A stretch of 35,235 nucleotides of DNA from Pseudonocardia sp. (GCA_030451825.1 JAKDNL010000011.1:1-35235); one strand, 5' to 3'; shown: positions 7,023 to 33,843, counted from the first letter of the stretch. A program made the numbers and translations. Notes: generated from the sequence alone by a model not told the origin.

Positions 7023-7034
7023 GTCATGGTTCTA

Positions 7035-7053
7035 TCGTACACTTAGTGTCAGA
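7035..7053 (-). promoter_or_regulatory. Candidate operator, site A (TCTGACACTAAGTGTACGA on minus strand)
   Basis: 16/19 identical to site C (16677-16695); lies between divergent genes. Confidence 0.65.
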
Positions 7054-15328: not shown

Positions 15329-15366
15329 CGCGCTCCTGGGGTCGGGGATCGGCATCGACCCCGCGG

Positions 15367-15385
15367 AAGAACACAGACCGTCAGA
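15367..15385 (-). promoter_or_regulatory. Candidate operator, site B, weaker (TCTGACGGTCTGTGTTCTT on minus strand), next to a TACTAT -10-like box
   Basis: Matches TCTGAC and the GTGT core of sites A/C; upstream of the minus-strand hydrolase. A separate 6-bp inverted repeat GACCGT-N8-ACGGTC spans 15376-15395. Confidence 0.4.
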
Positions 15386-15517
15386 TAGTACGGTCGGACC
15401 GGCCGAAAAGGCACCTCTGCTCGGCAATATCTTCCGTTGATGCAGTTCGGAGCTTCGCTCTAGGGGTTGTATCGATGGCGATGCCGTCAGATAATCTTCG
15501 AAACCGATGGAGAGACC

Positions 15518-16612
15518 ATGGGCGTTCTCTCGGAACCACACCGTCGTGCCCGCCGGGGCGGGCTCGCCGCGCTCATCGCGGCGCTGGCGGCCCTCTTGGC
15601 GGTCGCCGCGCCGGCGGCCGCCGCCCCCCTGGCGCCCGCCTCGGCCGGGGCCTGCCGGGTCGTCGCGGTGCCGGTGGCCGGCGGCGCACAGGTCGAGGGC
15701 GACCTCTGCGATCCCGCCGGGCGCAACTCGCCGGTCCTGCAGCTGCTCGTACCGGGTGGCACCTACGCACGCTCGTACTGGGACTTCCCGGTCGGGCACA
15801 CCTCGGCCGGTGAGCCCCTCTCCTACTCCCGGCACATGACGGCCGCGGGCTACAGCACGCTCGCCCTCGACCCGCTGGGGGTCGGCGGGAGCAGTCACTC
15901 GCCGAGCGTGACGGTGACCATCCAGGCCCAGGCCGAGGCGATCCACCGGGTCGTGCAGGCAGCCCGGACCGGCGCCCTCGGCGCCACCTATCCGACGGTG
16001 GTGCTCGTCGGCCACTCGCTCGGAACCCTCACCGGCTACGTCGAGGCGACGACGTATCGGGACGTGGACGGGATCGTCGCCAGCGGGACGTCGCATTCGC
16101 CCGCGGCGGGAGCCGTCGCGGCGCTGTTCGTCCACGCCGTCCCGGCGCCGCTGGACCCGGCGACGCGCGACGAGGTCCCGCTGGACATGGGCTACATCAG
16201 CCTGCCCGGCGCCCGGGAGATCTTCCACGCCGGCGGCCGGACCGACCCGGCGGTGCTCCGGGCCGACGAGGAATCGCGCAGCCCGGGTTCGTCGGCCTAT
16301 CTCGGGACCCTCGCTCCCTACATCGCCGCCACGCCGCTGTTGCGGACCGAGACCCTCGACGTCCCCGTCCTCGTCGCCAACGGTCGCGGGGACGCCGTGT
16401 TCTGCCGGCAGGGTGGATACGGCTCGGGCACGGACTGCGCGGACGCGCAGGCCCTCCGGGCCACGGAGGCCCCGTTCTTCGGGCCCGAAGCGGTCCTGGA
16501 GACCTACGTGCTCCCGGACGCCGGTCACATCCTCAACCTCAGCCCGTCCGCCTCGGACTGGTTCGCCCATGCGACGGGGTGGTTCACCGAGCACTTCCCA
16601 CTCGACAGCTGA
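15518..16612 (+). CDS. Secreted alpha/beta hydrolase (lipase/esterase-like)
   Basis: 364 aa; N-terminal twin-Arg/hydrophobic signal-like region (RRARRGGLAALIAALAALLAVAAPAAAA), VVLVGHSLGTLTGYVEA nucleophile motif. Confidence 0.8.
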   Translation: MGVLSEPHRRARRGGLAALIAALAALLAVAAPAAAAPLAPASAGACRVVAVPVAGGAQVEGDLCDPAGRNSPVLQLLVPGGTYARSYWDFPVGHTSAGEPLSYSRHMTAAGYSTLALDPLGVGGSSHSPSVTVTIQAQAEAIHRVVQAARTGALGATYPTVVLVGHSLGTLTGYVEATTYRDVDGIVASGTSHSPAAGAVAALFVHAVPAPLDPATRDEVPLDMGYISLPGAREIFHAGGRTDPAVLRADEESRSPGSSAYLGTLAPYIAATPLLRTETLDVPVLVANGRGDAVFCRQGGYGSGTDCADAQALRATEAPFFGPEAVLETYVLPDAGHILNLSPSASDWFAHATGWFTEHFPLDS

Positions 16613-16676
16613 TTCTGACGCCGTCGTCGGGCAATGAGGGTGCCTTCCTCTCGGAACGAGCGCCTGCGTCCGCTAA

Positions 16677-16695
16677 TCTGACACTGCGTGCACGA
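16677..16695 (+). promoter_or_regulatory. Candidate operator, site C (TCTGACACTGCGTGCACGA), overlapping a TAATCT -10-like box
   Basis: 16/19 identical to site A; 35 bp upstream of the SDR ATG. Confidence 0.65.
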
Positions 16696-16729
16696 ATGCG
16701 GCACGGCGACCACGAGCAAGGGAGCGAGC

Positions 16730-17503
16730 ATGGACGTCAACGGGATCTCGGCAATCGTCACCGGCGGAGCCGGTGGCCTCGGTGAGGCGACCACCCGGCG
16801 GCTGGTGGCCGCCGGTGCGTCGGTCGTGGTGGCCGACCTGTCCGACGAGCGAGGCAAGGGGCTCGCCGACGAGTTGGGTGAGCGCGCCCGCTACGTGAGC
16901 ACGGACGTCACCTCGGACGACAGCGTCGAGGGTGCGATCGCGGCGGCCACCGAGCTCGGCCCGCTGCGGCTGCTCGTCAACGCGCACGGCGGCGCCCCGG
17001 GGCCTGCCGCCCGCGTGGTGGGCCGCGACGGTTCACCGGCGCCGATGGACGCGTTCGACGGATACGTGCGGCTGTTCCTGGCCGGCACGTTCAACACGAT
17101 GCGGCTGGTGTCCGCCGCGATCGCGCGGCAGGAGCCGGACGCGAACGGCTCGCGCGGGCTCGTGGTCAACACCGCGAGTATCGCCGCCTTCGAGGGGCAG
17201 GTCGGGCAGACCGCGTACTCGGCGGCCAAGGGCGGCGTCGTCGGCCTCACGCTGCCCGCGGCGCGCGACCTGAGCCCGCTGGGTATCCGGGTCGTGGCGA
17301 TCGCGCCGGGTACCTTCTTCACCCCCGCGTTCCGGATGGAGCGCGACGAGGCGGAGACGCGCTGGGGCAGCGGGGTGCCGTTTCCCAAGCGGATGGGCAG
17401 TCCGTCGGAGTACGCCGAGCTGGTGCACAGCATCGCGATCAACGACTACATCAACGGCGAGACCATCCGGATCGACGGGGCGCTGCGCTTCCAGCCGAAG
17501 TAG
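16730..17503 (+). CDS. SDR-family oxidoreductase (3-hydroxyacyl-CoA dehydrogenase type II-like)
   Basis: 257 aa; TGGAGGLGEATTRRL, NTASIAAFEGQVGQTAYSAAKGGVVGLT. Confidence 0.88.
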   Translation: MDVNGISAIVTGGAGGLGEATTRRLVAAGASVVVADLSDERGKGLADELGERARYVSTDVTSDDSVEGAIAAATELGPLRLLVNAHGGAPGPAARVVGRDGSPAPMDAFDGYVRLFLAGTFNTMRLVSAAIARQEPDANGSRGLVVNTASIAAFEGQVGQTAYSAAKGGVVGLTLPAARDLSPLGIRVVAIAPGTFFTPAFRMERDEAETRWGSGVPFPKRMGSPSEYAELVHSIAINDYINGETIRIDGALRFQPK

Positions 17504-18414: not shown

Positions 18415-18433
18415 TCGACCTGAAAGTGTCAGT
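18415..18433 (-). promoter_or_regulatory. Candidate operator, site D, degenerate (ACTGACACTTTCAGGTCGA on minus strand)
   Basis: Divergent promoter region; followed on + by further half-site-like repeats GTGTTAGA (18435) and ATGTCAAA (18445). Confidence 0.4.
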
Positions 18434-18521
18434 TGTGTTAGATTATGTCAAAGAAGTCGACTGATTGTCCTCGTCGTGGCGTGGGCACAGCATCAGATGG
18501 TTCTCACGGAGAGGTGGGGCG

Positions 18522-20571: not shown

Positions 20572-20590
20572 TCTGACACCGTGTCTCCGA
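20572..20590 (+). promoter_or_regulatory. Candidate operator, site E (TCTGACACCGTGTCTCCGA), with perfect core palindrome GACAC-C-GTGTC and overlapping TATTCT -10-like box
   Basis: 23 of 28 positions identical to the site G region over 20569-20596 / 29669-29696; between divergent genes. Confidence 0.65.
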
Positions 20591-20653
20591 ATTGGCCACC
20601 ATGGTGGCCGGGTCGGGGCGGGTGCAGTACGCGATAGGCATGGAGGGGCGAGG

Positions 20654-21724
20654 ATGACGGTCGCCACGCGGCGTGAGGTGCGGGAGACGGCGGAACGGCT
20701 CACGGGCTGGCTCGCGGGTCGGCTCGGGGCCACCGATGTGCGAGTGTCCCGGCTGGAGCTGCCCGACGCCGGGTTCAGCAACGAGACGGCCTTCTGCGAG
20801 GTGGACTGGACCGGCCCGGAGGGCCCGGAGCACCGCGACTACGTGCTGCGCATCCAGCCGACCGCGCACCAGCTCTTCGTCGAGCCGAACGCGCTGTTCC
20901 AGGCCCGGATGATGCGGGCCCTCGGCGACTCGACGGACCTGCCGGTGCCGCGGATCCCGCTCGTCGAGCCGGATCCGGAGCTGTTCGGCGCACCCTTCTA
21001 CGTGATGGAGCGGGTGGCCGGGCGGATCCCGCCGGACGTGCCGAGCTACCACCGCCGGGGCTGGGTGACCGAGCTCGACGAGGATGCGCGCGCCCGGATG
21101 TACGACAACGGGCTGGTCGCCATGGCCCGGCTGCACGCCGTGGACTGGCGGCGGGGCTTCGGTTTCCTGGCCCCCGCGGGTGGCGCGGACCCACTGGCGG
21201 CCTACGTCGAGCGGCTGGCGGAGTGGTTCACCTGGGCGCAGGCGGACGTGATCCACGACGCGGACGTGGTGCGCGCGGGCCTGGAGCACGTGGTCGGCCA
21301 CCGGCCCGAGCCGGAGGGTGAGGGTCTCGTCTGGGGCGACGCTCGGGTCGGGAACATCATCTACGGCGCGGACCTCGAGGTCGCCGCGATGATCGACTGG
21401 GAGACCACGACGATCGGCCCCCCCGGGATCGACCTGGGCTGGTGGCTGGTGTTCGAGGACTACCTCTGCGAGGCCCAGCACAAGCCCAGGCTCGCCGGGG
21501 TCCCCGGCCGGGGGGCGACCGTGGCCCGGTACGAGGAGCTGGCCGGGCGGCGCCTACCGGCGATCGCCTACTACGAGGTCCTCGCGGCGCTGGTCCTCTC
21601 GCTGATCACCAGCAGGCTCAGCCGGCTGCTGATCGAGAGCGGCTTGGCGGAGGACGTCGCCACCGAGTACACGACCCGGGTGACCGGGATGCTGCGTCGC
21701 AGGCTGGAGCGCGTGGCGGGTTGA
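20654..21724 (+). CDS. Phosphotransferase family (APH-like, acyl-CoA dehydrogenase family member 10/11-like N-domain type) protein
   Basis: 356 aa; LVWGDARVGNIIYGADLEVAAMIDWETTTIGPPGIDLGWW (Brenner-like motif with DW). Confidence 0.85.
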   Translation: MTVATRREVRETAERLTGWLAGRLGATDVRVSRLELPDAGFSNETAFCEVDWTGPEGPEHRDYVLRIQPTAHQLFVEPNALFQARMMRALGDSTDLPVPRIPLVEPDPELFGAPFYVMERVAGRIPPDVPSYHRRGWVTELDEDARARMYDNGLVAMARLHAVDWRRGFGFLAPAGGADPLAAYVERLAEWFTWAQADVIHDADVVRAGLEHVVGHRPEPEGEGLVWGDARVGNIIYGADLEVAAMIDWETTTIGPPGIDLGWWLVFEDYLCEAQHKPRLAGVPGRGATVARYEELAGRRLPAIAYYEVLAALVLSLITSRLSRLLIESGLAEDVATEYTTRVTGMLRRRLERVAG

Positions 21725-21755: not shown

Positions 21756-23186
21756 ATGGGCGCGATGACGGGCCCCGGGGCCGAGGGGCGCGAGCCCGCG
21801 GGCGGTGGCGGCCGGGGACGCCCGGGCGCCACCGGGTGGGGATCGCCCCGCCGGTCGAGCTACGGGCCGAACAGCCCGCAGGTCGGCAGCCGCGGCGCCA
21901 GGACGCGGGTACACATCCTGGACACTGCGCTCGACCGGTTCGCCGGCCAGGGCTACCAAGCGACGTCGGTCGAGGACATCGCCCGCGCGGCCGGAGTGTC
22001 CCGGGCCACCCTCTACCAGTACTTCGAGGGCAAGGAACAGGTCTTCGCCGAGCTCCTCGACGAGTGCGGCGCCGCCCTCATGCGGCTGATCCGGCGGCTC
22101 GGCCCGCTCGGCCCCACCGCCGCGGGTTTCGACAACCTGCACTGGTGGCTGGGGGAGTGGGCGTGGGTCTATGACCGCTACGCCTCGATGTTCGTCCAGT
22201 GGGACGTGATCGACCACGCGGGCCGGCCGTTCCGGCCGATGGTGGCGAGCTTCGTCGACGCCTACGCGGGGCGGATCGCGGACCGGCTGGCGGAGTCCGG
22301 GTTCGACGACCCGGACCGGCTCGAGCTCGGGCTGGCGCTGCTGCTGGTGGTGCACCGGGTGAATCTCTACCGACACACCGGGTTCAGCCCCGTGGAGGAC
22401 CGTGCGGTGCTCGACGGGCTCGCCACCGTGGTGCAGCAGGTGCTGTTCCCGGCCACGCCGTCGGGGGTGCTGACCGGACTGGTCGGGGTGCCAGCTCCGG
22501 TGTCCCCACCCGGACCCGTGCGCTCGTACGACCCGGCTCCGCGCACCCGCCATCTCGGCCGGCGCGCCGCGGCGACGGTCGCCCGGCTGCAGGAGGCGGG
22601 CGGCGTCGCGTTCGCCGAGCTCGGTTACCGGCACGCGAACCTCGACGCGGTCGCCGCGCAGGCCGGGGTCGCGCGGGCGACGCTCTACAAGTACTTCCGC
22701 GACAAGGGTGCGCTGCTGGCGGTGCTGAGCGAGGAGGCCGCGGGTGGGGTCGTCGGGACTGCCGCCCGGCTCGACGACCTGACCGGCTCGGGCCCGCCGG
22801 ACCCCGCTGCCCTGCGCAGTTGGCTCGACGATTACGTGCACTTCCACACCCGCTACCAGGGCGCGTTCGCGGTCTGGTTCGACGACCCGGACGCTGCGCG
22901 CGAGATCCGGGTCGACGCGGCGGCCGCGTCGACGCACCTGTTCGCGGCGGCCTACCGGCTCACCGCGAGCGTGTCGCGGGACTACCCGTTCCCGTGCCAC
23001 GTGGGGGCGATGGTGCTGCTGGCGCTGCTGCAGCGGGTCCCGTCCGGGATGGCCGAGCTGTTCCCGGAGCACCCGGCCGGCCGGGTCGCCGACGCGGTAG
23101 CGCTGTTCGTGGAGCGGGGCCTGCTCGACCGCGCGGGACCCGGGGCCGGGCTCAGTCCGAGGAGGGGAGCGGAGCCGCCGACTTGA
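21756..23186 (+). CDS. Transcriptional regulator with two tandem TetR domains (paralogue 1)
   Basis: 476 aa; N-domain HTH ...QATSVEDIARAAGVSRATLYQYFEGKEQVF, C-domain HTH ...ANLDAVAAQAGVARATLYKYFRDKGALL. Confidence 0.9.
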   Translation: MGAMTGPGAEGREPAGGGGRGRPGATGWGSPRRSSYGPNSPQVGSRGARTRVHILDTALDRFAGQGYQATSVEDIARAAGVSRATLYQYFEGKEQVFAELLDECGAALMRLIRRLGPLGPTAAGFDNLHWWLGEWAWVYDRYASMFVQWDVIDHAGRPFRPMVASFVDAYAGRIADRLAESGFDDPDRLELGLALLLVVHRVNLYRHTGFSPVEDRAVLDGLATVVQQVLFPATPSGVLTGLVGVPAPVSPPGPVRSYDPAPRTRHLGRRAAATVARLQEAGGVAFAELGYRHANLDAVAAQAGVARATLYKYFRDKGALLAVLSEEAAGGVVGTAARLDDLTGSGPPDPAALRSWLDDYVHFHTRYQGAFAVWFDDPDAAREIRVDAAAASTHLFAAAYRLTASVSRDYPFPCHVGAMVLLALLQRVPSGMAELFPEHPAGRVADAVALFVERGLLDRAGPGAGLSPRRGAEPPT

Positions 23187-23460
23187 GCTCGAGCGGCTCC
23201 TCACCGACCGAGAGCGACCCGGGCCCGGCCTTCGTGCAGAGCACCTCGACGCCCTGTCCGGGGTGCACGTAGCGCTTGCCGACCTGGACGCCGCCGTCGA
23301 ACGGCGGGACCGGACCCGCGCTGCCGACCGGCTCGTCCTTGCCGACCATGGGGGCGCCCCCGCACCGGAGATCGGCGGGGCCGCCGGCACGGAGGACCAC
23401 GACCTCGGTCGGGCAGACGGCGGAGCGCAGGCGCACGCCGGGGCTGAGGGTGAGGCTCAT
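23152..23460 (-). CDS. Small hypothetical protein (102 aa)
   Basis: MSLTLSPGVRLRSAVCPTEVVVLRAGGPADLRCGGAPMVGKDEPV...; good RBS GAGGAG upstream, and an operator-like site just upstream. Confidence 0.7.
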   Translation of the reverse strand: MSLTLSPGVRLRSAVCPTEVVVLRAGGPADLRCGGAPMVGKDEPVGSAGPVPPFDGGVQVGKRYVHPGQGVEVLCTKAGPGSLSVGEEPLELKSAAPLPSSD

Positions 23461-23476
23461 CGGAAAGCTCCTCGAA

Positions 23477-23495
23477 TCTGACAAATTTGTTCAGG
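23477..23495 (+). promoter_or_regulatory. Candidate operator, site F, partial (TCTGACAAATTTGTTCAGG)
   Basis: TCTGACA half matches; right half differs, but the element contains ACAAATTTGT and CTGA...TCAG symmetry; 17 bp upstream of the 102-aa gene ATG. Confidence 0.45.
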
Positions 23496-23509
23496 TATGG
23501 TGGGCCGGC

Positions 23510-24433
23510 TCAGCTGCCGAGCCGCAAGCCCGGAGTCCGGGTCCTGAAGACGTCGGTGGCGAGTCGGGCGCCGAGCTTCTCCGCGTCCCAGCGGGTGCCG
23601 CCGTTGGAGATCGTCGCACCGCGGGACCAGCCCTGCATCAAGGTGATCTCCTCGCCGATCGCCCGCAGCACCTGCCCGCTGATGTGCCCGGCCTCGGGGC
23701 TGGCCAGCCAGGCCACGACCGGGCAGCACAGCGACGGGTCCTTCGGATCGAACTCGTCGTCGGGGCGCTCGTCGGGTTCGAGAGCCTTGCGATCGCCGCC
23801 GAGGGTGGCCGAGAGGCGGGTCACCCCTCCGGGGCTGATCGCGTTGACGGTCACGCCGATTCCGGCCAGCTCGAGGCTCAGGGTCTGGGTGAGCCCGACG
23901 ATCGCGGCCTTGGCGGTGCCGTAGTTGGTCTGGCCGAAGTTGCCGAGCAGACCGGCGCCCGAGGTCGTGTTGACGATCCGGCCGTAGACGTTGCCGCCTC
24001 CGGCCTTCGCCTCGGCCCGCCACCGGGTCGCGACCGCGCGGCTGACCAGCCATGTCCCGCGCACGTGCACACGCATCACCAGGTCGAAGTCCGCCGGGCT
24101 CATGTTCCAGATCGCACGGTCGCGGACGATCCCGGCGTTGTTGACCACGATGTCGAGCCGGCCGAGCTCGTCGACGGCCCGCCCGACCATGTCCTCGACC
24201 TGCTGCTCGTCGCCGACGTCGCTGTAGTCCGCCACGGCCTTCCCGCCGCGCGCGCCGATCAGGTCGACGACGGCGTCGGCGTCGCGACCGGAGCCCTCAC
24301 CGGACACCGAGGTCCCCAGGTCGTTCACCACGACCGTGGCGCCGTGCTTCGCCAGCTCCAGCGCGTGGCCCCGGCCGATGCCGTGGCCCGCGCCGGTGAC
24401 GAGGGCGATCTTGCCTTCCAACAGGCCGGTCAT
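23510..24433 (-). CDS. SDR-family oxidoreductase (peroxisomal multifunctional enzyme-like)
   Basis: 307 aa; TGAGHGIGRGHALELAKHGATVVVNDLG, NTTSGAGLLGNFGQTNYGTAKAAIVGLT. Confidence 0.9.
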   Translation of the reverse strand: MTGLLEGKIALVTGAGHGIGRGHALELAKHGATVVVNDLGTSVSGEGSGRDADAVVDLIGARGGKAVADYSDVGDEQQVEDMVGRAVDELGRLDIVVNNAGIVRDRAIWNMSPADFDLVMRVHVRGTWLVSRAVATRWRAEAKAGGGNVYGRIVNTTSGAGLLGNFGQTNYGTAKAAIVGLTQTLSLELAGIGVTVNAISPGGVTRLSATLGGDRKALEPDERPDDEFDPKDPSLCCPVVAWLASPEAGHISGQVLRAIGEEITLMQGWSRGATISNGGTRWDAEKLGARLATDVFRTRTPGLRLGS

Positions 24434-24873
24434 GCGGTAGCTCCTTCGGGGGCGGCCGGCCGGAACACGGTCGCGGTCAGCTCGTCGGTCAGCGGGGCGG
24501 GGACGGCCAGCAGGGGCATGCCGATCCGCAGGTCCCCGGGTGGGCAGTCCACGACGTTCGTCATGACCCGAGGGCCCTCGGCCAGCTCGACGACGGCCGC
24601 GACGTAGGGCAGCCGCTCGGCGAACGGGACGAGGTCGTTCACGAACACGGTGGAGTGGGTGTAGAGCGTGGCCCGGCCGCTCGCCTCCTCGGGGGTGACG
24701 GCGCCGGACCAGCAGTGCGGGCAGAACGGGCGGGGGTAGTGGTGGGCCCGGCCGCACCCGGCGCACCGGGCGATCAGCAGCCGGCCCTCCCGGGCGGCGG
24801 CCCAGTAGACGTCGGTGTCCGCGTCCGGGGTGGGGATGTCGCTGCGCGGCTTGCTCGCCGGTGGGGTGGTCAT
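24430..24873 (-). CDS. Zn-ribbon/OB-fold (DUF35) protein
   Basis: 147 aa; CAGCGRAHHYPRPFCPHCWSG ribbon; 4-bp overlap with SDR. Confidence 0.85.
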   Translation of the reverse strand: MTTPPASKPRSDIPTPDADTDVYWAAAREGRLLIARCAGCGRAHHYPRPFCPHCWSGAVTPEEASGRATLYTHSTVFVNDLVPFAERLPYVAAVVELAEGPRVMTNVVDCPPGDLRIGMPLLAVPAPLTDELTATVFRPAAPEGATA

Positions 24874-24881
24874 GTGTCCTC

Positions 24882-25697
24882 TCAGTGTCCGCGGTAGTCG
24901 GGGTCGCGGCGCTCGACGAACGCACGCACGCCCTCGCCGGAGTCGTGGGCGTGCGACTGCAGTTCCTGCGCCATCGCCTCGGCGAGGTAGGCCCCCGCGC
25001 GGTCGGTGTCCGGGGACGCGTTGAGCAGTTTCTTGGTGAGGGCGATCGCGCTGGTCGGGGCCACCGCGAGGCGTTGCACGAATGCCTCGGCGGCCTCCGC
25101 CAGCTCCGCGGCCGGGACGACCCGGTTGACCAGACCGAGGGCCAGCGCATCGGCGGCGGGCAGCGCGTCGCCGAAGAACGCCAGCTCCTTCGCCTTCTGC
25201 ATACCGATCCGCCGGGGGAGCAGGTAGGCGCCGCCGCCGTCCATCACCAGGCCACGACGGACGAACGCCTCGACGAAGGTCGCCTGCTCGCTCGCGACGA
25301 CGAGGTCGGCGGCGAAGGCCAGGTGCGCCCCGATCCCGGCGGCCGGGCCCTGGACGATGGCCACCACCGGCTTGCCGCAGTCCAGCACGGACGCGACCAG
25401 GGTCTGCGCGCCGTCCATGATCTTCCGCATCGCGTCGCCGACACGCTTCTCCCCGCCCGACGCCCGGTTGCGGGCCAGCGCCTTCACATCGGCCCCGGAG
25501 CAGAAGTGCCTGCCCTCGGCGGCGAGGACGACCACCCGGACCTCGGGATCGCCGTCGGAGGCACGCAGCGCGTCGATCACTGTGTCGCGGTCCTCGGGCC
25601 GCAGCGCGTTGGCCGCCTCCGGCCGGTTCAGGGTGATCCGGCGGACGCCCGCCGCGTCGGTCACGAGGACGCCTGGGGCGGCCTCGGTCGTGGTCAC
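24882..25697 (-). CDS. Enoyl-CoA hydratase/isomerase family protein
   Basis: 271 aa; GRHFCSGADVKAL, VAIVQGPAAGIGAHLAFAADLVVASEQATFVEAFVRRGLVMDGGG. Confidence 0.93.
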   Translation of the reverse strand: MTTTEAAPGVLVTDAAGVRRITLNRPEAANALRPEDRDTVIDALRASDGDPEVRVVVLAAEGRHFCSGADVKALARNRASGGEKRVGDAMRKIMDGAQTLVASVLDCGKPVVAIVQGPAAGIGAHLAFAADLVVASEQATFVEAFVRRGLVMDGGGAYLLPRRIGMQKAKELAFFGDALPAADALALGLVNRVVPAAELAEAAEAFVQRLAVAPTSAIALTKKLLNASPDTDRAGAYLAEAMAQELQSHAHDSGEGVRAFVERRDPDYRGH

Positions 25698-26977
25698 GCC
25701 GTCACCTCCTGGGGAGTGAACTCGGCCCGCAGGTGCTTGACACCGTGCAGGAAGTTGGAGCGCAGGAACTGGGGCTCGCCGACCGCCCGGATGTCCGGTA
25801 GAAGCTCGAACAGCGTCCGGAAGGCCACCGACAGCTCCAGCCGCGCGAGGTTGGCGCCCAGGCAGTGGTGCGGGCCCGGCGCGCCGAAGGCGACGTGCGC
25901 CCCGTGGTCGCGGGTGACGTCGAACCGGGTCGGGTCGGGGAATCGGCTCTCGTCCTGGTTGGCCGAGCGGTACCAGAGCACCACCTTGTCGCCCTCGCGG
26001 AACTCCTGCTCGCCCAGCCGGACACCATCACGGGTCACGGTGCGCCGCATGTACAGGACCGGGGAGGCCCAGCGGACCACCTCGTCGACGGCGGCGATGG
26101 TGTGGGTATCCGGGTCGCCCTGCCACAGCGCCCGCTGCTCGGGGAACTGGGTCAGCGCGAGCAGGCCGTGGGACAGCGCGTTGCGAGTGGTCTCGTTGCC
26201 CGCCCCGACGAGCAGGATGAAAAACCGGGCCAGCTCCTCCGGGGTCAGCCGCTCGCCCTGGGCGGTGACGAGCGTGGTGATCAGGTCGTCCTTCGGCTCG
26301 GCGATCCGTTCCGCGGCCAGCTCGCGGAGCAGGTCGGACAGCGCCTCGCCCGCCTTCCAGACGGCGGTTGCGACGGCGCGCGGGGTCTGGTCCGGGACGT
26401 ACTCCGGGTCGCTCGCACCGAGCACGATATTGGTCTGGTCGAAGATGAACTGTTCGTAGCGTTGCGGGATCCCCATCATCACGTTGACGATCCGCAGCGG
26501 GAGCAGGGCCGCGATGTCGGTGACGAAGTCGCACCCGCCGCGCGTCGCGACCGCCCCGATGATGTCTCGGGCAGACTGCTCGACGTCGGTGTGCAGCCGG
26601 TCCAGGGACTTCGTGGTGAACCCGCGCGAGACGATCCGGCGAAGCCGCTGGTGCTCGGGGTTGTCCATATCGATGATCGAGCCGCGGTACTCGCGCAGCG
26701 AGGCCGGCTGGTCGAAGATCGTGGTGCCCTGCCCGGAGCAGAAGTCGTCCGGCCTGCGGCTGACGTCCCACACGTCGTCGTAGGTGGTCAGGGCCCAGAA
26801 CCCGCCGCCGCGCGGTGCCCCGCCGAGGTCCCGCTCGAGGACGTAGGGGCGCGGGTCCTCGGCGCGCAGTCGCGCGAAGAGCGCGTCCCGCTCCTCGACC
26901 GGGCGGGTCCACCAGGTCAGGTCGTCCAGGACGTCGCCGGGCCGCTCGGTCCCGGTGCTGATTTCCGTGCTGGTCAC
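25694..26977 (-). CDS. Cytochrome P450 (CYP124/125/142-like by motif style)
   Basis: 427 aa; I-helix LVGAGNETTRNALSHG, heme motif FGAPGPHHCLGANLAR. Confidence 0.93.
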   Translation of the reverse strand: MTSTEISTGTERPGDVLDDLTWWTRPVEERDALFARLRAEDPRPYVLERDLGGAPRGGGFWALTTYDDVWDVSRRPDDFCSGQGTTIFDQPASLREYRGSIIDMDNPEHQRLRRIVSRGFTTKSLDRLHTDVEQSARDIIGAVATRGGCDFVTDIAALLPLRIVNVMMGIPQRYEQFIFDQTNIVLGASDPEYVPDQTPRAVATAVWKAGEALSDLLRELAAERIAEPKDDLITTLVTAQGERLTPEELARFFILLVGAGNETTRNALSHGLLALTQFPEQRALWQGDPDTHTIAAVDEVVRWASPVLYMRRTVTRDGVRLGEQEFREGDKVVLWYRSANQDESRFPDPTRFDVTRDHGAHVAFGAPGPHHCLGANLARLELSVAFRTLFELLPDIRAVGEPQFLRSNFLHGVKHLRAEFTPQEVTA

Positions 26978-26989
26978 GGGTCCGCCCTC

Positions 26990-28111
26990 TCAGCCGGCCG
27001 CGGGGTACCGGAGGACCCCGCGCAGGAAGTTGCCGGTACGCATGTCGGCGTAGCCGTCGTTGATGTCCTCGAGTGCATAGGTGCGCGAGACGACGGCGTC
27101 GAGATCGACGAGTCCCGCGGACCAGAGCTCGAGCAGCTTGGGGATGTCGGCCCGCGGGTTCGCGGAGCCGTAGAGCGTGCCGACGATCTGCTTCTCGGAC
27201 AGCGTCAGGTCCATGAAGTTCACCGCGACCTCGCGCTCCGCGGCGGGGTGGATGTTGGTGACGACGAGCCTGCCGCGCTTGGCGGTCATGGCGAGCGCCT
27301 TGCGGATGAGCTTCCCGTCGCCCCGGCCCATGGTGCAGATGAACTTGTCGACGCCGCGGTTCCAGGTGGCCTCGGTGACCACGCCGGGGGCCTCTTCCCA
27401 GCTCGTCGCGACGTGCGTGGCGCCCATGGCGAGCGCCTGGTCCTTCTTGGACGCCGCCGGGTCGAGCGCGACGATCACCCGCGCGCCGGCGAGCTTCGCG
27501 CCCTGGATGGCGGCCGCCCCGATGCCCCCCCCCCCGGCCACGACGACGGTGTCACCCGGCCGGACGTCGGCCGCGTAGACCGCCGAGCCCCAGCCGGTGA
27601 CGAAGCCGCAGCCCAGCAGGCAGGCCCGATCCAGCGGGACTGCCGGGTCGACCCGGATGCAGCTCGCCTCGTGGACCACGGTGTGGTGGGCGAACGAGCC
27701 GACCAGGCAGGCCGTGGCGATGTCCTGGCCGCGGCCGTGGTGACGGGCCGTGCCGTCGGCGATCTGCCGGCCGGTGTAGAGCCGGGCGCCGAGGTCACAG
27801 AGGCTCTGGTGCCCCGTCGAGCACGACGGGCAGCGCCCGCACGAGGGCATGAATCCGAAGACGACGTGGTCGCCGGGCCGGACCGAGGTGACCTTGTCGC
27901 CCACCGTGGTCACGACGCCCGCGCCCTCGTGCCCGCCGATGCAGGGCAGGTGGAAGGGCATGTCGCCGGAGACGATGTGCTCGTCGGAGTGGCACATCCC
28001 GGAGGCGTGCAGCTCGACCTGCACCTCCTGCGGCCCGGGGGGGTCGAGCTCGATCGTCTCGACCGACCAGGGCGCCTCGCGCTCCCAGAGCACCGCTGCC
28101 AGCGTCTCCAC
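26990..28111 (-). CDS. Zn-dependent alcohol dehydrogenase (NDMA-dependent-like)
   Basis: 373 aa from GTG 28111 preceded by AAGGAG; GMCHSDEHIVSGDMPFHLPCIGGHEGAGVV, CGRCPSCSTGHQSLCDLG. Confidence 0.9.
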   Translation of the reverse strand: METLAAVLWEREAPWSVETIELDPPGPQEVQVELHASGMCHSDEHIVSGDMPFHLPCIGGHEGAGVVTTVGDKVTSVRPGDHVVFGFMPSCGRCPSCSTGHQSLCDLGARLYTGRQIADGTARHHGRGQDIATACLVGSFAHHTVVHEASCIRVDPAVPLDRACLLGCGFVTGWGSAVYAADVRPGDTVVVAGGGGIGAAAIQGAKLAGARVIVALDPAASKKDQALAMGATHVATSWEEAPGVVTEATWNRGVDKFICTMGRGDGKLIRKALAMTAKRGRLVVTNIHPAAEREVAVNFMDLTLSEKQIVGTLYGSANPRADIPKLLELWSAGLVDLDAVVSRTYALEDINDGYADMRTGNFLRGVLRYPAAG

Positions 28112-28151
28112 GATCTGCTCCTTCAGGTAATTCCGGTATCGGTCGTCCGGC

Positions 28152-29612
28152 TCAGCGCGCGGCCGGGACGACGATCGACTGCTGTTCGACGAAGGCGGTG
28201 ACGCCCTCGGGCCCGCACTCGCGGCCGGTGCCCGAGCGGCGCATGCCGCCGAAGGGGCTGCCGAGATCCATGGCGGCCGAGGAGTTGACGGCGACCGAGC
28301 CGGCGGCGAACCGGCCCGCGAGGAGCTCGGCACGGTCCGGATCGGCGCTCCAGACGCTCCCGGCGAGGCCGTAGTCCGTGGAGTTGGCGATCCGGACGGC
28401 CTCGTCCACGTCGGTGTAGGGCAGGACCACCGCGACCGGGCCGAAGATCTCCTCGCGGGCGACCGGGACGGCCGGGTCGACGTCGGTGAACAGCACGGGC
28501 GCGACGTAGTGGCCTGCCGGCAGGTCGGGGGCGCCGGCGCGGCCCGCGACGCGGGCACCGGCGGCCTCGGCGTCGGCCACGATCCTCTCGATCCGCTGCT
28601 TCGCCCGGTCGTCGATCACCGGGCCGATCTCGGTCTCCTCGTCGGCCGGGTCACCGACACGCAGCGCCGAGATCCGGGCCGCGAGCGCCTCGGTGATCTC
28701 CTTCGCGCGCGAGCGGGGGACCAGGAACCGGGTCTGGGCGATGCAGATCTGCCCGCTGTTCGCCATCGCCCCGTCGACGAGGTCGTCGACGACGCGGTCG
28801 GTGAGCTCGACGTCGTCGAGCAACAGGGCGGCCGACCGGCCGCCCAGCTCGAGGGTGCAGCGGCGCTGGTCGCGGGCACAGAGCTCGCCGATCCGGGTAC
28901 CGACCGCCGTCGAGCCGGTGAAGCTGATCTTGTCGACGCCGGGATGCGAGACCAGGTGCTCACTCGCCTGCGCACCGGCGGGCAGCACGGTGAGCACCCC
29001 CTTCGGCAGGCCGGCCTCGGCGGCCACCTCGGCGAGGACGACGGCGGAGAGCGGGGCCAGCGGCGACGGTTTGAGGAGCACGGTGCAGCCGGCCAGCAGG
29101 GCTGGGGCGAGTTTCAGCACCGCGGTGAACAGCGGGGCGTTCCACGGCACGATCGCCCCGACCACGCCCACGGGCAGCCGGCGTACCCGGACCTCGCCGC
29201 CGACCAGCGCGGCGCGCGTCTCCACCCACGGATAGGAGGCCGCGAGTGCGCGGTGCACGTGCAGCACGCCGAGCGCGGTGCCGACCTGCCCGCCGACCGC
29301 CCAACCGCGCGGCGAGCCGACCTCGTCGGAGATGAGGTCGGCGAGCTCGTCCGTGCGGTCGCGCAGCAGCGTGCCCATCCTGCCGAGGATCTCGGCGCGC
29401 TCCTGCGGGGTCGTCCGAGCCCACGGGCCGGAGGCCAGGGCGGTGCGGGCGGCGGCCACGGCGGCGTCGACATCGGCGGTGTCCGCCTCCGCGACGGTGC
29501 CCACGATCTGCCCGGTGGCGGGGGAACGGACCTCGATGGTCCGGCCCGACGCGGACGCGCGGGGTCGCCCGCCGATCAGCAGCTTCTCATGGATGCGCAC
29601 GGTGGTCGTCAC
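28152..29612 (-). CDS. Aldehyde dehydrogenase
   Basis: 486 aa; GAIVPWNAPLFTAVLKLAPALLAGCTVLLKPSP, TLELGGRSAALLLDDV, GQICIAQTR. Confidence 0.93.
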   Translation of the reverse strand: MTTTVRIHEKLLIGGRPRASASGRTIEVRSPATGQIVGTVAEADTADVDAAVAAARTALASGPWARTTPQERAEILGRMGTLLRDRTDELADLISDEVGSPRGWAVGGQVGTALGVLHVHRALAASYPWVETRAALVGGEVRVRRLPVGVVGAIVPWNAPLFTAVLKLAPALLAGCTVLLKPSPLAPLSAVVLAEVAAEAGLPKGVLTVLPAGAQASEHLVSHPGVDKISFTGSTAVGTRIGELCARDQRRCTLELGGRSAALLLDDVELTDRVVDDLVDGAMANSGQICIAQTRFLVPRSRAKEITEALAARISALRVGDPADEETEIGPVIDDRAKQRIERIVADAEAAGARVAGRAGAPDLPAGHYVAPVLFTDVDPAVPVAREEIFGPVAVVLPYTDVDEAVRIANSTDYGLAGSVWSADPDRAELLAGRFAAGSVAVNSSAAMDLGSPFGGMRRSGTGRECGPEGVTAFVEQQSIVVPAAR

Positions 29613-29671
29613 GCTGGCTGGTACTCCCCGCTCGAGGGCGCCGCGGCGTCGCGACGGCTGGACAGACTTAT

Positions 29672-29690
29672 TCTGACAATGTGTCTACCA
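29672..29690 (+). promoter_or_regulatory. Candidate operator, site G (TCTGACAATGTGTCTACCA), overlapping TATTCT
   Basis: Close relative of site E; divergent ALDH/MaoC promoter region. Confidence 0.65.
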
Positions 29691-29738
29691 TTTGGCAAGC
29701 AGCGAGTGGGCCCTGTGCGGCGTGGACCGCTCCCGATT

Positions 29739-29757
29739 TCTGACGTAGCGTGTCGCG
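29739..29757 (+). promoter_or_regulatory. Candidate operator, site J, weaker (TCTGACGTAGCGTGTCGCG)
   Basis: Shares TCTGAC and GCGTGT core; upstream of the MaoC-like gene. Confidence 0.4.
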
Positions 29758-29804
29758 CAGTCCGGCGGGCTGCCGTCGTGGCGGCCCGGGAGGAGGAGGA
29801 TCCC

Positions 29805-30260
29805 ATGAGTGCCCCCGTGAGCGCCCCGGTCGGGACGCGCGGCGAGGAGTTCGAGGTGGTGGTCGAGCGGGGAAAGATCGCAGAGTTCGCCGCCGCGATG
29901 CAGTCCGCCGATCCGGCGTACCGCGGCGCCCAGGCGGTCGTCCCGCCGACGTTCCTGGCCAGCTCCGCCCTCTGGCGCCCGGAGTCGGCCCGGGTCGCGG
30001 TCGGGTTCGACCGCAGACGGCTGCTGCACGGTGAGCAGGAGTACGTGTTCCGTGGCCCGCCGCCCCGCGCGGGGCAGACGCTCACGGCTGTTGAGCGGGT
30101 CGACGAGCGCTATGCGAAGCCCGGCAAGAGGGGCGGTGAGATGCGTTTCTGCGTGGTGGTCACCGAGTTCCGGGACGAGGCGGGCACCCTGGTCGCCGAG
30201 GCCAGGGCCACCTACATCGAGCGAGCGGCCCGGCCGGCCGCCACGGACGAGGCATCATGA
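29805..30260 (+). CDS. MaoC N-terminal/FAS1-type dehydratase-like subunit
   Basis: 151 aa; FAAAMQSADPAYRGAQAVVPPTFLAS...HGEQEYVFRGPPPRAGQTL; preceded by AGGAGGAGGA. Confidence 0.8.
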   Translation: MSAPVSAPVGTRGEEFEVVVERGKIAEFAAAMQSADPAYRGAQAVVPPTFLASSALWRPESARVAVGFDRRRLLHGEQEYVFRGPPPRAGQTLTAVERVDERYAKPGKRGGEMRFCVVVTEFRDEAGTLVAEARATYIERAARPAATDEAS

Positions 30261-30673
30261 GCGCGCCGGCGACCGCGGTCGAGGTCGGCGCCCGGGCTCC
30301 GGCCCGGGACTACGGCCCGATGACCCCGCAGATGTTCGTCCGCTACTCCGGCGCCTCCGGGGACCTCAACCCGATGCATTACGACGACGCGATGGCGCGC
30401 TCGGCCGGCTATCCCTCGGTGTTCTCCCAGGGGATGCACGTGGCGGCGCTGCTGGCCGGATACGCGGTGGACTGGCTCGGTGCCGATGCGGTGCGCCGGT
30501 TCGGGGTGCGCTTTCGCGAGCAGGTCTACCCCGGCGACGTGCTGAGCTGCTCAGGCGAGGTCGTCGAGGCCGAGCCGCGCCCCGACGGGGTGTTGCTCAC
30601 CGTGTCGTTGGCGGCCAGCGTCGGGGAGCGCACTGCCGTCACGGCGATCGCGGACTTCCTGCTGCCGGGGTGA
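30257..30673 (+). CDS. MaoC-family (R)-hydratase
   Basis: 138 aa; FVRYSGASGDLNPMHYDDAMARSAGYPSVFSQGMH hydratase-2 motif. Confidence 0.88.
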   Translation: MSAPATAVEVGARAPARDYGPMTPQMFVRYSGASGDLNPMHYDDAMARSAGYPSVFSQGMHVAALLAGYAVDWLGADAVRRFGVRFREQVYPGDVLSCSGEVVEAEPRPDGVLLTVSLAASVGERTAVTAIADFLLPG

Positions 30674-30773
30674 CGCGGTAACCACTGCCGCGGTGCGGCG
30701 GTGATCGCCACGACCGGGGGTCGTCGGCGCCACGCCGTCCGCCCGGCGTCGGCCCCGGGGTGAGGTGGGCCTA

Positions 30774-30792
30774 TCATGGACACGATGTCAGA
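30774..30792 (-). promoter_or_regulatory. Candidate operator, site H (TCTGACATCGTGTCCATGA on minus strand) overlapping the start of the second tandem-TetR gene
   Basis: TCTGACAnnGTGTC shared with E and G; overlaps TATCAT -10-like box (30772-30777) and the ATGs at 30776/30785. Confidence 0.65.
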
Positions 30793-32098
30793 GAGCGGCG
30801 AGATCCTGCGACGCGACGGCTACTGGCCCGCGAGCCCGGTCGTCGGTCGTCGTGGCGCCCGCACCCGGCAGCGGATCGTCGTCGAGACCCTGAAGCTCTT
30901 CGAGACCCAGGGGTTCCACAGCACCTCAGTCGACGCGATCGCGAAGGCTGCAGGCACCTCACGCGCCACGCTCTACCAGTACTTCGAGAGCAAGGACCAG
31001 ATCTTCGTCGAGCTGCTCGACGAGTGCGGTGCCGCGCTGATGCGCGTCGTGCGCAGGCTGGGTGCACTCGGACCCACCCCGGAGGGCTTCGACAACCTGC
31101 ACTGGTGGCTCGGCGAATGGGCATGGGTCTACGACAAGTACGCCACGATGTTCGTGCAGTGGGCCAGCATCGACACCCCGGACGCCGCCGTCCGCCCACT
31201 GGTCATGGGCTTCGTCCGCTCCTACAACTCGCGGATCACCCGGCGGCTCGCGCAGAGCGGCGTCGAGGGGATGGCCCTGGACGCGGCGTCGCTCGCGCTG
31301 ACCGGGCTCGTGCACCGCTTCAACTATTTCCGGCACCGGGGCAACGTTCCGCTCCCCGGCGTCGACGAGTGCATCGACGGGCTCGCCGTGGTGATGCAGC
31401 TGATGCTGTTCCCGGACACCCCGCCGCAGGCGTTCGACCAGCTCGGGCCGGTCGAGACCACGCCTCTGCACCGGGTGCCGGAGTCGGTGACGATCGAGAT
31501 CGACCGCCCCCGGCCGAGCGCCCGCGCCGCCACGACCGTCGACGCGATCATGGCCACCGGAGCGCGACTGTTCGCCGAGCGCGGATACCACGGCACCGGG
31601 GTCGACGAGCTGGTCGCCGAGGCGGGGTTCGCCAGGGCGACCTTCTACAAGTACTTCGACGACAAGCTCGACCTGCTCCGCAGGCTGTCCGCGGAGTGTC
31701 AGGTCGTCGCGGTCGGGCTCGCGGGCCGGCTCGCCGCGCTCGATGCGACGCCAGGGCAGCTGCGGACGTGGCTGACCGACTTCGTCCCGTTCCACCGCCG
31801 CTACCTCGGGGTCTTCCGGGCCTGGGTCGACGGCGCGCTGACCGACCCGGGCCTCGTCGCGGCCGCGGAGGGCGGCAATGCCGCCATGCACGCCGCCGCC
31901 ATGCGGGTGCTCGCACAGCTGGAGCGGCCGTACCCGCTGGATCTCGACGTTGCGGCGGGGGTGTTCCTTGCGGTGCTCGATCGGCTCCCCGAGGCGATCC
32001 AGGAGTCCGCGCCCGACATCTCGGACTCGGAGATCGTGGACCTGATGGTCGAGGTCCTGGAGCGGGGCCTGCTCGTCGGAGAGCCCCGCACGCTGTAG
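30785..32098 (+). CDS. Transcriptional regulator with two tandem TetR domains (paralogue 2)
   Basis: 437 aa from ATG 30785 (alternative ATG 30776); N-HTH TSVDAIAKAAGTSRATLYQYFESKDQIF, C-HTH TGVDELVAEAGFARATFYKYFDDKLDLL. Confidence 0.9.
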   Translation: MSESGEILRRDGYWPASPVVGRRGARTRQRIVVETLKLFETQGFHSTSVDAIAKAAGTSRATLYQYFESKDQIFVELLDECGAALMRVVRRLGALGPTPEGFDNLHWWLGEWAWVYDKYATMFVQWASIDTPDAAVRPLVMGFVRSYNSRITRRLAQSGVEGMALDAASLALTGLVHRFNYFRHRGNVPLPGVDECIDGLAVVMQLMLFPDTPPQAFDQLGPVETTPLHRVPESVTIEIDRPRPSARAATTVDAIMATGARLFAERGYHGTGVDELVAEAGFARATFYKYFDDKLDLLRRLSAECQVVAVGLAGRLAALDATPGQLRTWLTDFVPFHRRYLGVFRAWVDGALTDPGLVAAAEGGNAAMHAAAMRVLAQLERPYPLDLDVAAGVFLAVLDRLPEAIQESAPDISDSEIVDLMVEVLERGLLVGEPRTL

Positions 32099-32111
32099 AC
32101 GCGCCGTCAGA
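32093..32111 (-). promoter_or_regulatory. Candidate operator, site K, weaker (TCTGACGGCGCGTCTACAG on minus strand)
   Basis: TCTGAC...GTCTAC resembles site G; sits at the TetR stop codon, upstream of flavin reductase. Confidence 0.4.
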
Positions 32112-32156
32112 AATGTGAGCTCGACTCCGTCTCGAGGCGTTGACCGGGGCTTCAGA

Positions 32157-32175
32157 TCGTGAACATAATGTCAGA
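32157..32175 (-). promoter_or_regulatory. Candidate operator, site I (TCTGACATTATGTTCACGA on minus strand)
   Basis: Matches A and C at TCTGACA, T9, G12-T13, and ACGA; upstream of flavin reductase. Confidence 0.65.
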
Positions 32176-32848: not shown

Positions 32849-33839
32849 GGCGTGTCTCCCATATGAGGCGTCCGGTTTGCGGGACGATCGCGCGGTGAGT
32901 TCGTCGAGATTCGCGGTGCTCTCGGATGCCCAGTGGCAGCGGATCGCTCCGTTGCTGCCCTCCAACGTGGGACGCCGCGGTCACCCGTTCGGCAACGACC
33001 GTCGAGTGGTCGAGGGGATCATCTACCGCTACCGGACCGGGCTGCCCTGGCGCGATCTACCGCGGGAACAGTTCGGGCCGTGGCAGACAGTGTGGAAGCG
33101 CCACCGCCGCTACGCCGCGCAGGGCACCTGGGACCGGGTACTGGCGGCGCTGCTGGCCCAGGCCGACGCCGCAGGCAAGATCGACTGGACCGTGTCGGTG
33201 GACGCTACGATTAACCGGGCCCACCAGCACGCCACGAACACGACCCGCCCCGAGCAGGACACAGGGGGCACGGTCGAACTACACGAAACCGCCACCGGGG
33301 TTCCTGCCCAGCCCACTGGGCGGACCGCGTGAACCAGCAGGTCACGGCATCGGCCGCTCCCGTGGCGGCCTGACCACCAAGATCCATGCAGCGGTCGACC
33401 GACACGGCCGCCCGCTGGCACTGGTGGTGACCGGCGGGCAGCGCAACGACGGCGCGATGCTCGAACAGGTCCTGGCCGACATCGCCGTGCCCCGCCTGGG
33501 CGCGGGCCGCCCCCGAACCCGGCCCGACACCGTCGTCGCCGACCGGGCCTACTCCTCGGGAGTCAACCGGCGCGCGCTGGCCCGCCGCGGGATCACCACC
33601 GCCATCCCGCAGAAGAAGGACGAAATCGCAGCCCGCCAACGCCGCGGCTCCGCCGGCGGGAGGCCGCCCGGACTCGACACCGAGACCTACAAGGGCCGCA
33701 ACGTCGTCGAACGCCACTTCGCGCTGACCAAGCAATGGCGCGCCCTGGCCACCCGATACGACAAACTCGCCATCACCTACCGCGCCGCCACCGTCCTCAG
33801 CGCCTGCATCACCTGGTCACGACTATTGGGAGACATGCC
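32849..33839 (+). mobile_element. IS5-type insertion sequence (IS427-like group by target and ends)
   Basis: Imperfect terminal inverted repeats GGCGTGTCTCCCATA / GGCATGTCTCCCAATA (right end reverse-complemented), flanked by CTAG at 32845-32848 and 33840-33843; two-frame DDE transposase inside. Confidence 0.85.
32895..33332 (+). CDS. IS5-family transposase, first frame
   Basis: VSSSRFAVLSDAQWQRIAPLLPSNVGRRGHPFGNDRRVVEGIIYRYRTGLPWRDLPREQFGPWQTVWKRHRRY...DWTVSVDATINRAHQHA. Confidence 0.85.
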   Translation: MSSSRFAVLSDAQWQRIAPLLPSNVGRRGHPFGNDRRVVEGIIYRYRTGLPWRDLPREQFGPWQTVWKRHRRYAAQGTWDRVLAALLAQADAAGKIDWTVSVDATINRAHQHATNTTRPEQDTGGTVELHETATGVPAQPTGRTA

Positions 33840-33843
33840 CTAG
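33301..33843 (+). CDS. IS5-family transposase, second frame (needs frameshift; start is approximate)
   Basis: GIGRSRGGLTTKIHAAVDRHGRPLALVVTGGQRNDG...DTVVADRAYSSG...YKGRNVVERHFALTKQWRALATRYDKLAITYRAATVLSACITWSRLLGDMP; stop TAG lies in the right-hand CTAG. Confidence 0.8.
   Translation, partial: FLPSPLGGPREPAGHGIGRSRGGLTTKIHAAVDRHGRPLALVVTGGQRNDGAMLEQVLADIAVPRLGAGRPRTRPDTVVADRAYSSGVNRRALARRGITTAIPQKKDEIAARQRRGSAGGRPPGLDTETYKGRNVVERHFALTKQWRALATRYDKLAITYRAATVLSACITWSRLLGDMP

Follow-up and report, generated by a model that had tools for sequence, protein, structure and literature searches.

Two double-TetR proteins and their family

The DNA analysed here is a whole contig of Pseudonocardia sp., 35,235 nucleotides long (GCA_030451825.1 JAKDNL010000011.1; C656 in our numbering) and called the window below; it belongs to a 7.49-Mb genome in 968 contigs with 8.3% contamination. 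It encodes two regulators, P0001 and P0002, each with two tandem TetR domains in one chain, and carries repeated copies of an asymmetric element containing TCTGACA. Pfam TetR_N matches two stretches in each protein (8.4e-28 and 1e-33), in agreement with the first-pass annotation, which had read two complete TetR domains in each open reading frame; the N-domain string quoted there and the noted likeness of the C-domain recognition helices also match the sequences as written. The recognition helices are SRATLYQYF in the N-domain and ARATxYKYF in the C-domain, and both proteins have the N-terminal arm RRxxYxxxS..VGxRGxxTR and a common motif in helix 5 of the N-domain. Across nearly their entire length, P0001 and P0002 share 47% identity (E 8e-119), with values of 59% for the N-domains and 41% for the C-domains. 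Compared crosswise, the C-domain of one protein matches the N-domain of its paralogue along the whole domain (28% identity, E 4e-13), and hence each protein is an internal duplication. An alternative in-frame ATG of P0002 lies at 30776; the start at 30785 is backed by the orthologues. NCBIfam matches (MftR and others) cover the helix-turn-helix (HTH) alone and fall far under the cut-offs. Directly before P0001 lies a gene for an APH-type phosphotransferase fold (20654-21724), a pairing kept in the P0001-type locus L048, and the two genes are probably one transcript.

With the three paralogues of this genome as queries, 36 loci were found, nearly all spanning both halves and a few clipped at contig ends, in Pseudonocardia, Frankia, Parafrankia, Streptosporangiaceae, Actinoallomurus, Streptomyces, Acidimicrobiia and a Mycobacterium metagenome-assembled genome (MAG). 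Genes in these loci were called with a home-made codon-usage caller, and the search patterns were derived from the N-domain motif, so that more divergent doubles are under-sampled. Judged by sequence, the relatives of P0001 and P0002 are a coherent family across Actinomycetota. The third paralogue lies on contig C267 (L009 5232-6545, 49% identity) and adjoins DUF35, thiolase, FadD and enoyl-CoA hydratase (ECH) genes. P0001 groups with the C267 type and P0002 with its own orthologues; hence, the pair in the window are not recent duplicates. Pseudonocardia sp. KRD291 encodes a protein identical to P0002, on a contig with the same three sites around it. Additional doubles, and many single-domain proteins that match mainly the C half, came from a search across 398 genomes of the phylum. 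Divergent double TetRs of 420-427 amino acids were seen in other actinobacterial genomes (L055, L070 and L050); L055 and L070 join the P0001/P0002 family by their N halves, and L050 stands further away.

Among 33 members, the RRxSYGP arm and the GFDNLHWWLGEWAWVYD helix, which mark the family, are made of invariant and nearly invariant columns. Conservation is higher in the N half than in the C half: among 15 representatives, mean pairwise identity was 64% in the N-HTH, 55% in the N ligand domain, 56% in the C-HTH and 31% in the C ligand domain. The most conserved stretch of 20 residues, GFDNLHWWLGEWAWVYDKYA, corresponds in the N-domain model to helix 5 (residues 99-118), which is a pocket helix in TetRs.

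AlphaFold2 was run on family alignments of 33 rows for P0002 and 29 rows for P0001. It gave a predicted local distance difference test (pLDDT) of 90.3 and a predicted template modelling score (pTM) of 0.88 for P0002, and of 87.3 and 0.85, respectively, for P0001. In both models the N half packs against the C half of the same chain, and helices 4-9 of each half form an all-helical ligand-binding domain. This confident one-chain packing favours the single-chain pseudo-dimer proposed in the first-pass annotation. In a Foldseek search of the PDB with P0002, the top match was 9b7y, the Mce3R structure, matched at full length (428 columns, E 9.3e-9, TM 0.63/0.70), followed by single TetR domains, none of them better than E 3.5e-4; on the predicted model, Mce3R is therefore the closest solved architecture.

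An asymmetric element at the promoters of the cluster

TCTGACA occurs seven times in the window against 2.2 expected, a count reached in none of 100 shuffles. A de novo test of intergenic 7-mers in 24 loci, picked by regulator homology alone, gave TTCTGAC (64 vs 4.3 expected) and TCTGACA (63 vs 4.3) as the most enriched words, with nearly all of their copies being intergenic; some of the loci are related, and the counts are hence not fully independent. The 20-bp pattern TCTGACANNNNGTNNNNSAW, derived from the window's own sites, of which the 7-mer test is independent, has six exact copies in the window and seven in the whole genome, and its reversed control none. The lone copy outside lies on contig C538 (L090 1298-1317), upstream of a CaiB-like CoA-transferase gene and opposite an isochorismatase-like gene, both names being assigned by eye; it is possibly a distant regulon member. 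A refined position weight matrix search drifted onto conserved HTH coding sequence, CTTCTACAAGTACTTCGACGA, and was used solely to locate sites.

A promoter-like pair overlaps with five of the six exact sites and with the degenerate site at 18418, as compared with 3 of 200 random 20-mers, and with none of the weaker sites at 15361, 16614, 29739 and 32087. The element marks most promoters of the cluster, P0002's own start codon included. Pseudonocardia, Streptosporangiaceae and Frankia all keep a site at the start of the regulator gene itself, as does Parafrankia, where the neighbours are other genes; in Frankia and Parafrankia it lies 10 bp before the start, in the opposite orientation. Between the aldehyde dehydrogenase (AldDH) and MaoC-N genes, the footprint at 29672 is kept from Pseudonocardia to Streptosporangiaceae. 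An unconstrained alignment of this intergenic region from Pseudonocardia, Streptosporangiaceae, Actinoallomurus and the Mycobacterium MAG keeps ATTCTGACA...GCAA, with one G-for-A substitution in the MAG, and a second TCTGAC[G/A]T..CGT in all except the MAG. A sequence closely like the 18418 site precedes homologues of SDR-2 and LLM-1 in L048. TCTAACA variants also occur in that P0001-type locus at 903 and 2074, and this form is perhaps preferred by P0001.

The sites tend to occur in pairs. Within one intergenic region, 29 pairs at 30-130 bp have the same orientation and 5 the opposite; when orthologous regions were merged by hand, about 14 remained against 3 (one-sided sign test, ~0.006). The same-orientation pairs are mostly TCTGACA followed by TCTGACG, with a strong/weak spacing of 55-112 bp in which no clear 10.5-bp periodicity was seen by eye. 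The AldDH pair is exactly 67 bp apart in four Pseudonocardia loci, the window included.

Table 1. Regulator genes and operator-like sites in the window
Feature	Position	Strand	Remarks
P0001	21756-23186	+	Double-TetR regulator, 476 aa; open ORF (open reading frame), two Pfam TetR_N matches
P0002	30785-32098	+	Double-TetR regulator, 437 aa; open ORF, two Pfam TetR_N matches
Operator-like site TCTGACACTAAGTGTACGAT	7034-7053	-	Overlaps promoter-like pair; divergent promoters of thiolase/DUF35/Rieske-oxygenase operon (-) and hydrolase/FAA-hydrolase/aldolase/acyl-CoA dehydrogenase/thiolase/FadD operon (+)
Second TCTGACG site	15361-15380		Near 15467
TCTGACG-type site	15467-15486	-	Upstream of hydrolase (15518-16612)
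Weaker partner site TCTGACG...	16614-16633	+	63 bp from 16677
Operator-like site	16677-16696	+	Upstream of short-chain dehydrogenase/reductase SDR-1 (16730-17503); paired with 16614
Degenerate site, TCTAACA variant	18418-18450	-	Between SDR-2 (-) and luciferase-like monooxygenase LLM-1 (+)
Operator-like site	20572-20591	+	Between LLM-2 (-) and APH-P0001 operon (+); conserved in L048
Variant site TCTGACAAATTTGTTCAGG	23477-23496	+	Spacer one base longer; upstream of small gene (23152-23460, -)
Operator-like site	29672-29691	+	AldDH/MaoC-N divergent region; between and over AldDH promoter TTGCCA-17-CAGAAT
Weaker partner site TCTGACGTAGCGTGTCG	29739-29758	+	67 bp from 29672
Operator-like site	30773-30792	-	Across P0002 start codon and TATCAT -10-like hexamer
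Weaker partner site TCTGACGGCGCGTCTAC	32087-32106	-	64 bp from 32156-32175
Operator-like site	32156-32175	-	Over flavin-reductase promoter TTGACC-18-CATAAT

The genes around the regulators encode FadD ligases, an acyl-CoA dehydrogenase pair, thiolases with ChsH2-like DUF35 partners, MaoC hydratases, SDRs, two LLMs with a flavin reductase, a P450, an alcohol dehydrogenase (ADH), an AldDH, a Rieske oxygenase, an FAA hydrolase and an HpcH aldolase. In other genera, too, much of this neighbourhood is found in synteny with the regulators, and by its gene content the cluster looks like one for breaking down a cyclic terpenoid- or steroid-like compound. A DDE-transposase frame at 32926-33843, between the flavin reductase and acyl-CoA dehydrogenase genes, is split in the codon-usage gene calls and may be a degraded insertion.

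A proposed mode of repression and its alternatives

It is likely, in our judgement, that P0001 and P0002 are autoregulated, ligand-released single-chain repressors on asymmetric sites of a terpenoid- or steroid-like beta-oxidation cluster. The N and C domains of one chain would form the four-helix bundle that is made by two chains in ordinary TetRs, and one monomer would set two similar, unequal heads on the non-palindromic TTCTGACA-N3-(T)GT-N-(C)ACGAW. The constant TTCTGACA half is most likely the target of the conserved N head, and the variable half that of the faster-evolving C head. Occupancy of sites over the -35/-10 hexamers or the start codon would block RNA polymerase, and the positions of the sites fit such promoter-occlusion repression with autoregulation. 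A pathway intermediate, probably an acyl-CoA or a hydrophobic acid, would then release the repressor, from a pocket that would include the nearly invariant helix 5. P0002 would repress itself and the P0001 operon would be controlled through the same site, the regulon probably being common to both proteins; cross-regulation of the two is possible, because the same motif stands at both promoters.

The pairing of sites allows a further, more tentative proposal. Mce3R monomers pair back to back, and this, with the pairing of the Mce3R sites, makes bridging of paired sites a reasonable idea: by analogy, two monomers could bridge a strong TCTGACA and a weak TCTGACG site and loop the DNA, in a second, independent single-chain family. 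If so, bridging would give directional and cooperative repression beyond that of an ordinary palindromic TetR.

Several observations weigh against parts of the repressor model. With recognition helices that resemble each other and a core common to both half-sites, the two DNA-reading heads, which the first-pass annotation called different, are not very different, and the asymmetry would lie mainly in flanks and spacing. The arms of the site have a common TGA/ACA core, with flanks that are unlike and shifted by one base, which fits the sequences of the two helices. The assignment of the N head to the left half comes from a correlation of conservation alone, and the promoters are matches to consensus hexamers. 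The C267 locus lacks the exact 20-bp pattern and has only looser copies; its specificity may have shifted. (Its intergenic sites are TCTGACAACAGCGTTCAC, paired with a TCTGACG 81 bp away.) Finally, in Acidimicrobiia a near-perfect palindrome, TCTGACACGGACGTCAGA, stands at the regulator; hence, asymmetry is not obligatory, and a two-chain mode on symmetric sites is possible in some clades.

These palindromes, together with the fact that ordinary TetRs are homodimers, would suit N-N and C-C swapped homodimers, that is, two separate symmetric TetR units, each with its own palindromic operator and ligand, an arrangement drawn as an alternative in Figure 1D of the Mce3R paper (PMC11667970). It is considered improbable here, as AlphaFold2 packs N on C within the chain (pTM 0.85-0.88), Mce3R, the sole solved double TetR, takes the one-chain form, and the Pseudonocardia sites are non-palindromic: their symmetry was 0.523 as against 0.519 with the right half shuffled, in a coarse test in which the TCTGACA half is forced. 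Together with the de novo enrichment, this upholds the asymmetric element of the first-pass annotation as a predicted operator.

The element could also belong to another regulator kept in the same clusters, with the double TetRs binding elsewhere, since AldDH, ADH, P450, ECH and MaoC genes are conserved alongside the motif. There is little to recommend this explanation, given that in Parafrankia, Frankia, Streptomyces and Acidimicrobiia the motif stays with the double-TetR gene, at it or close by, despite other neighbours, that no regulator gene other than P0001 and P0002 was found among the window's genes, and that the site spans P0002's own start codon.

Under the single-chain repressor model, TTCTGACA would be a regulon signature by which uncharacterised catabolic genes of Pseudonocardia, Frankia and relatives can be grouped.

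Comparison with Mce3R and other TetRs

Mce3R (Rv1963c) of Mycobacterium tuberculosis, like P0001 and P0002, has two TetR domains in one chain. It is a proven one-chain pseudo-dimer, with a single-chain omega, one pocket and two unequal heads (PMC11667970). It binds a 25-bp asymmetric site, and its two sites lie 53 bp apart (PMC11667970). The predicted operator of P0001 and P0002 is likewise asymmetric and non-palindromic, and the window's sites are paired similarly to the strong and weak Mce3R copies, which are ~78 bp apart start to start. Mce3R is autoregulated and has lipid-type beta-oxidation (FadE-type) targets, as is proposed for the P0001/P0002 family. In contrast, it lacks the RRxSYGPxSPVVGxRGARTR arm of this family, and its first-domain (M1) helix is VTARALYRHY rather than SRATLYQYF. 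For 12 Mce3R-type genes, TCTGAC was absent from the upstream 400 bp, the only match (L083) lying 21 bp inside the gene. The mce/yrbE lipid-transport genes that go with Mce3R proper have no counterpart in the window, where no gene gave a Mce or YrbE domain.

The kinship with Mce3R suggested at first did not survive beyond the likeness of architecture. In domain trees that included ordinary TetRs from the same genome, with a small sampling of single-domain TetRs, the M1 and M2 domains of Mce3R form one clade (100/91); the N and C halves of the P0001/P0002 family fall with single-domain relatives on the far side (98/89), with ordinary TetRs in between. The N half is not nearest to M1, nor the C half to M2, in the trees or in approximately unbiased (AU) tests: joining M1 with N cost 53 log-likelihood units (AU p 0.001) and joining M2 with C cost 51 (AU p 0.007). 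Orthology through one ancient fusion was therefore rejected, under the tree model applied, as very improbable, the shared architecture and fold and the control of FadE-type lipid genes by Mce3R being outweighed by these trees and tests and by the unlike arms and recognition helices. Hence, the one-chain architecture probably arose twice; given the small sampling, the phylogeny is not settled and the double origin is to be taken as a strong lead. Mce3R-type doubles were found in 64 of 299 Mycobacteriales genomes, mostly as open frames of 395-450 amino acids, in a clade distinct from P0001, P0002 and the C267 paralogue. A Mce3R-type double TetR with a 406-amino-acid open frame also occurs on contig C688 (7349-7804) of the present genome, and thus both kinds coexist in one genome.

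A search of the open-access literature, which is incomplete in coverage, for further double-TetR families or a TCTGACA operator returned only Mce3R papers. Mce3R is thus the only double TetR with a structure in the literature found, beside which the P0001/P0002 type would be a separate, phylum-wide family with a predicted operator; two questions thereby become testable, namely whether asymmetric DNA is what one-chain TetRs read in every case, and why fusion would have taken place on two occasions. The nearest relatives of both family halves, above all of the C half, are single-domain TetRs of Actinomycetota (L056-L076), which have one domain each and are presumably ordinary homodimers on palindromes. 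KstR, KstR2 and Fad35R have similar targets, in sterol and fatty-acid catabolism, and ligands of the acyl-CoA type (PMC11667970); unlike P0001 and P0002, they are single-domain homodimers on palindromes.

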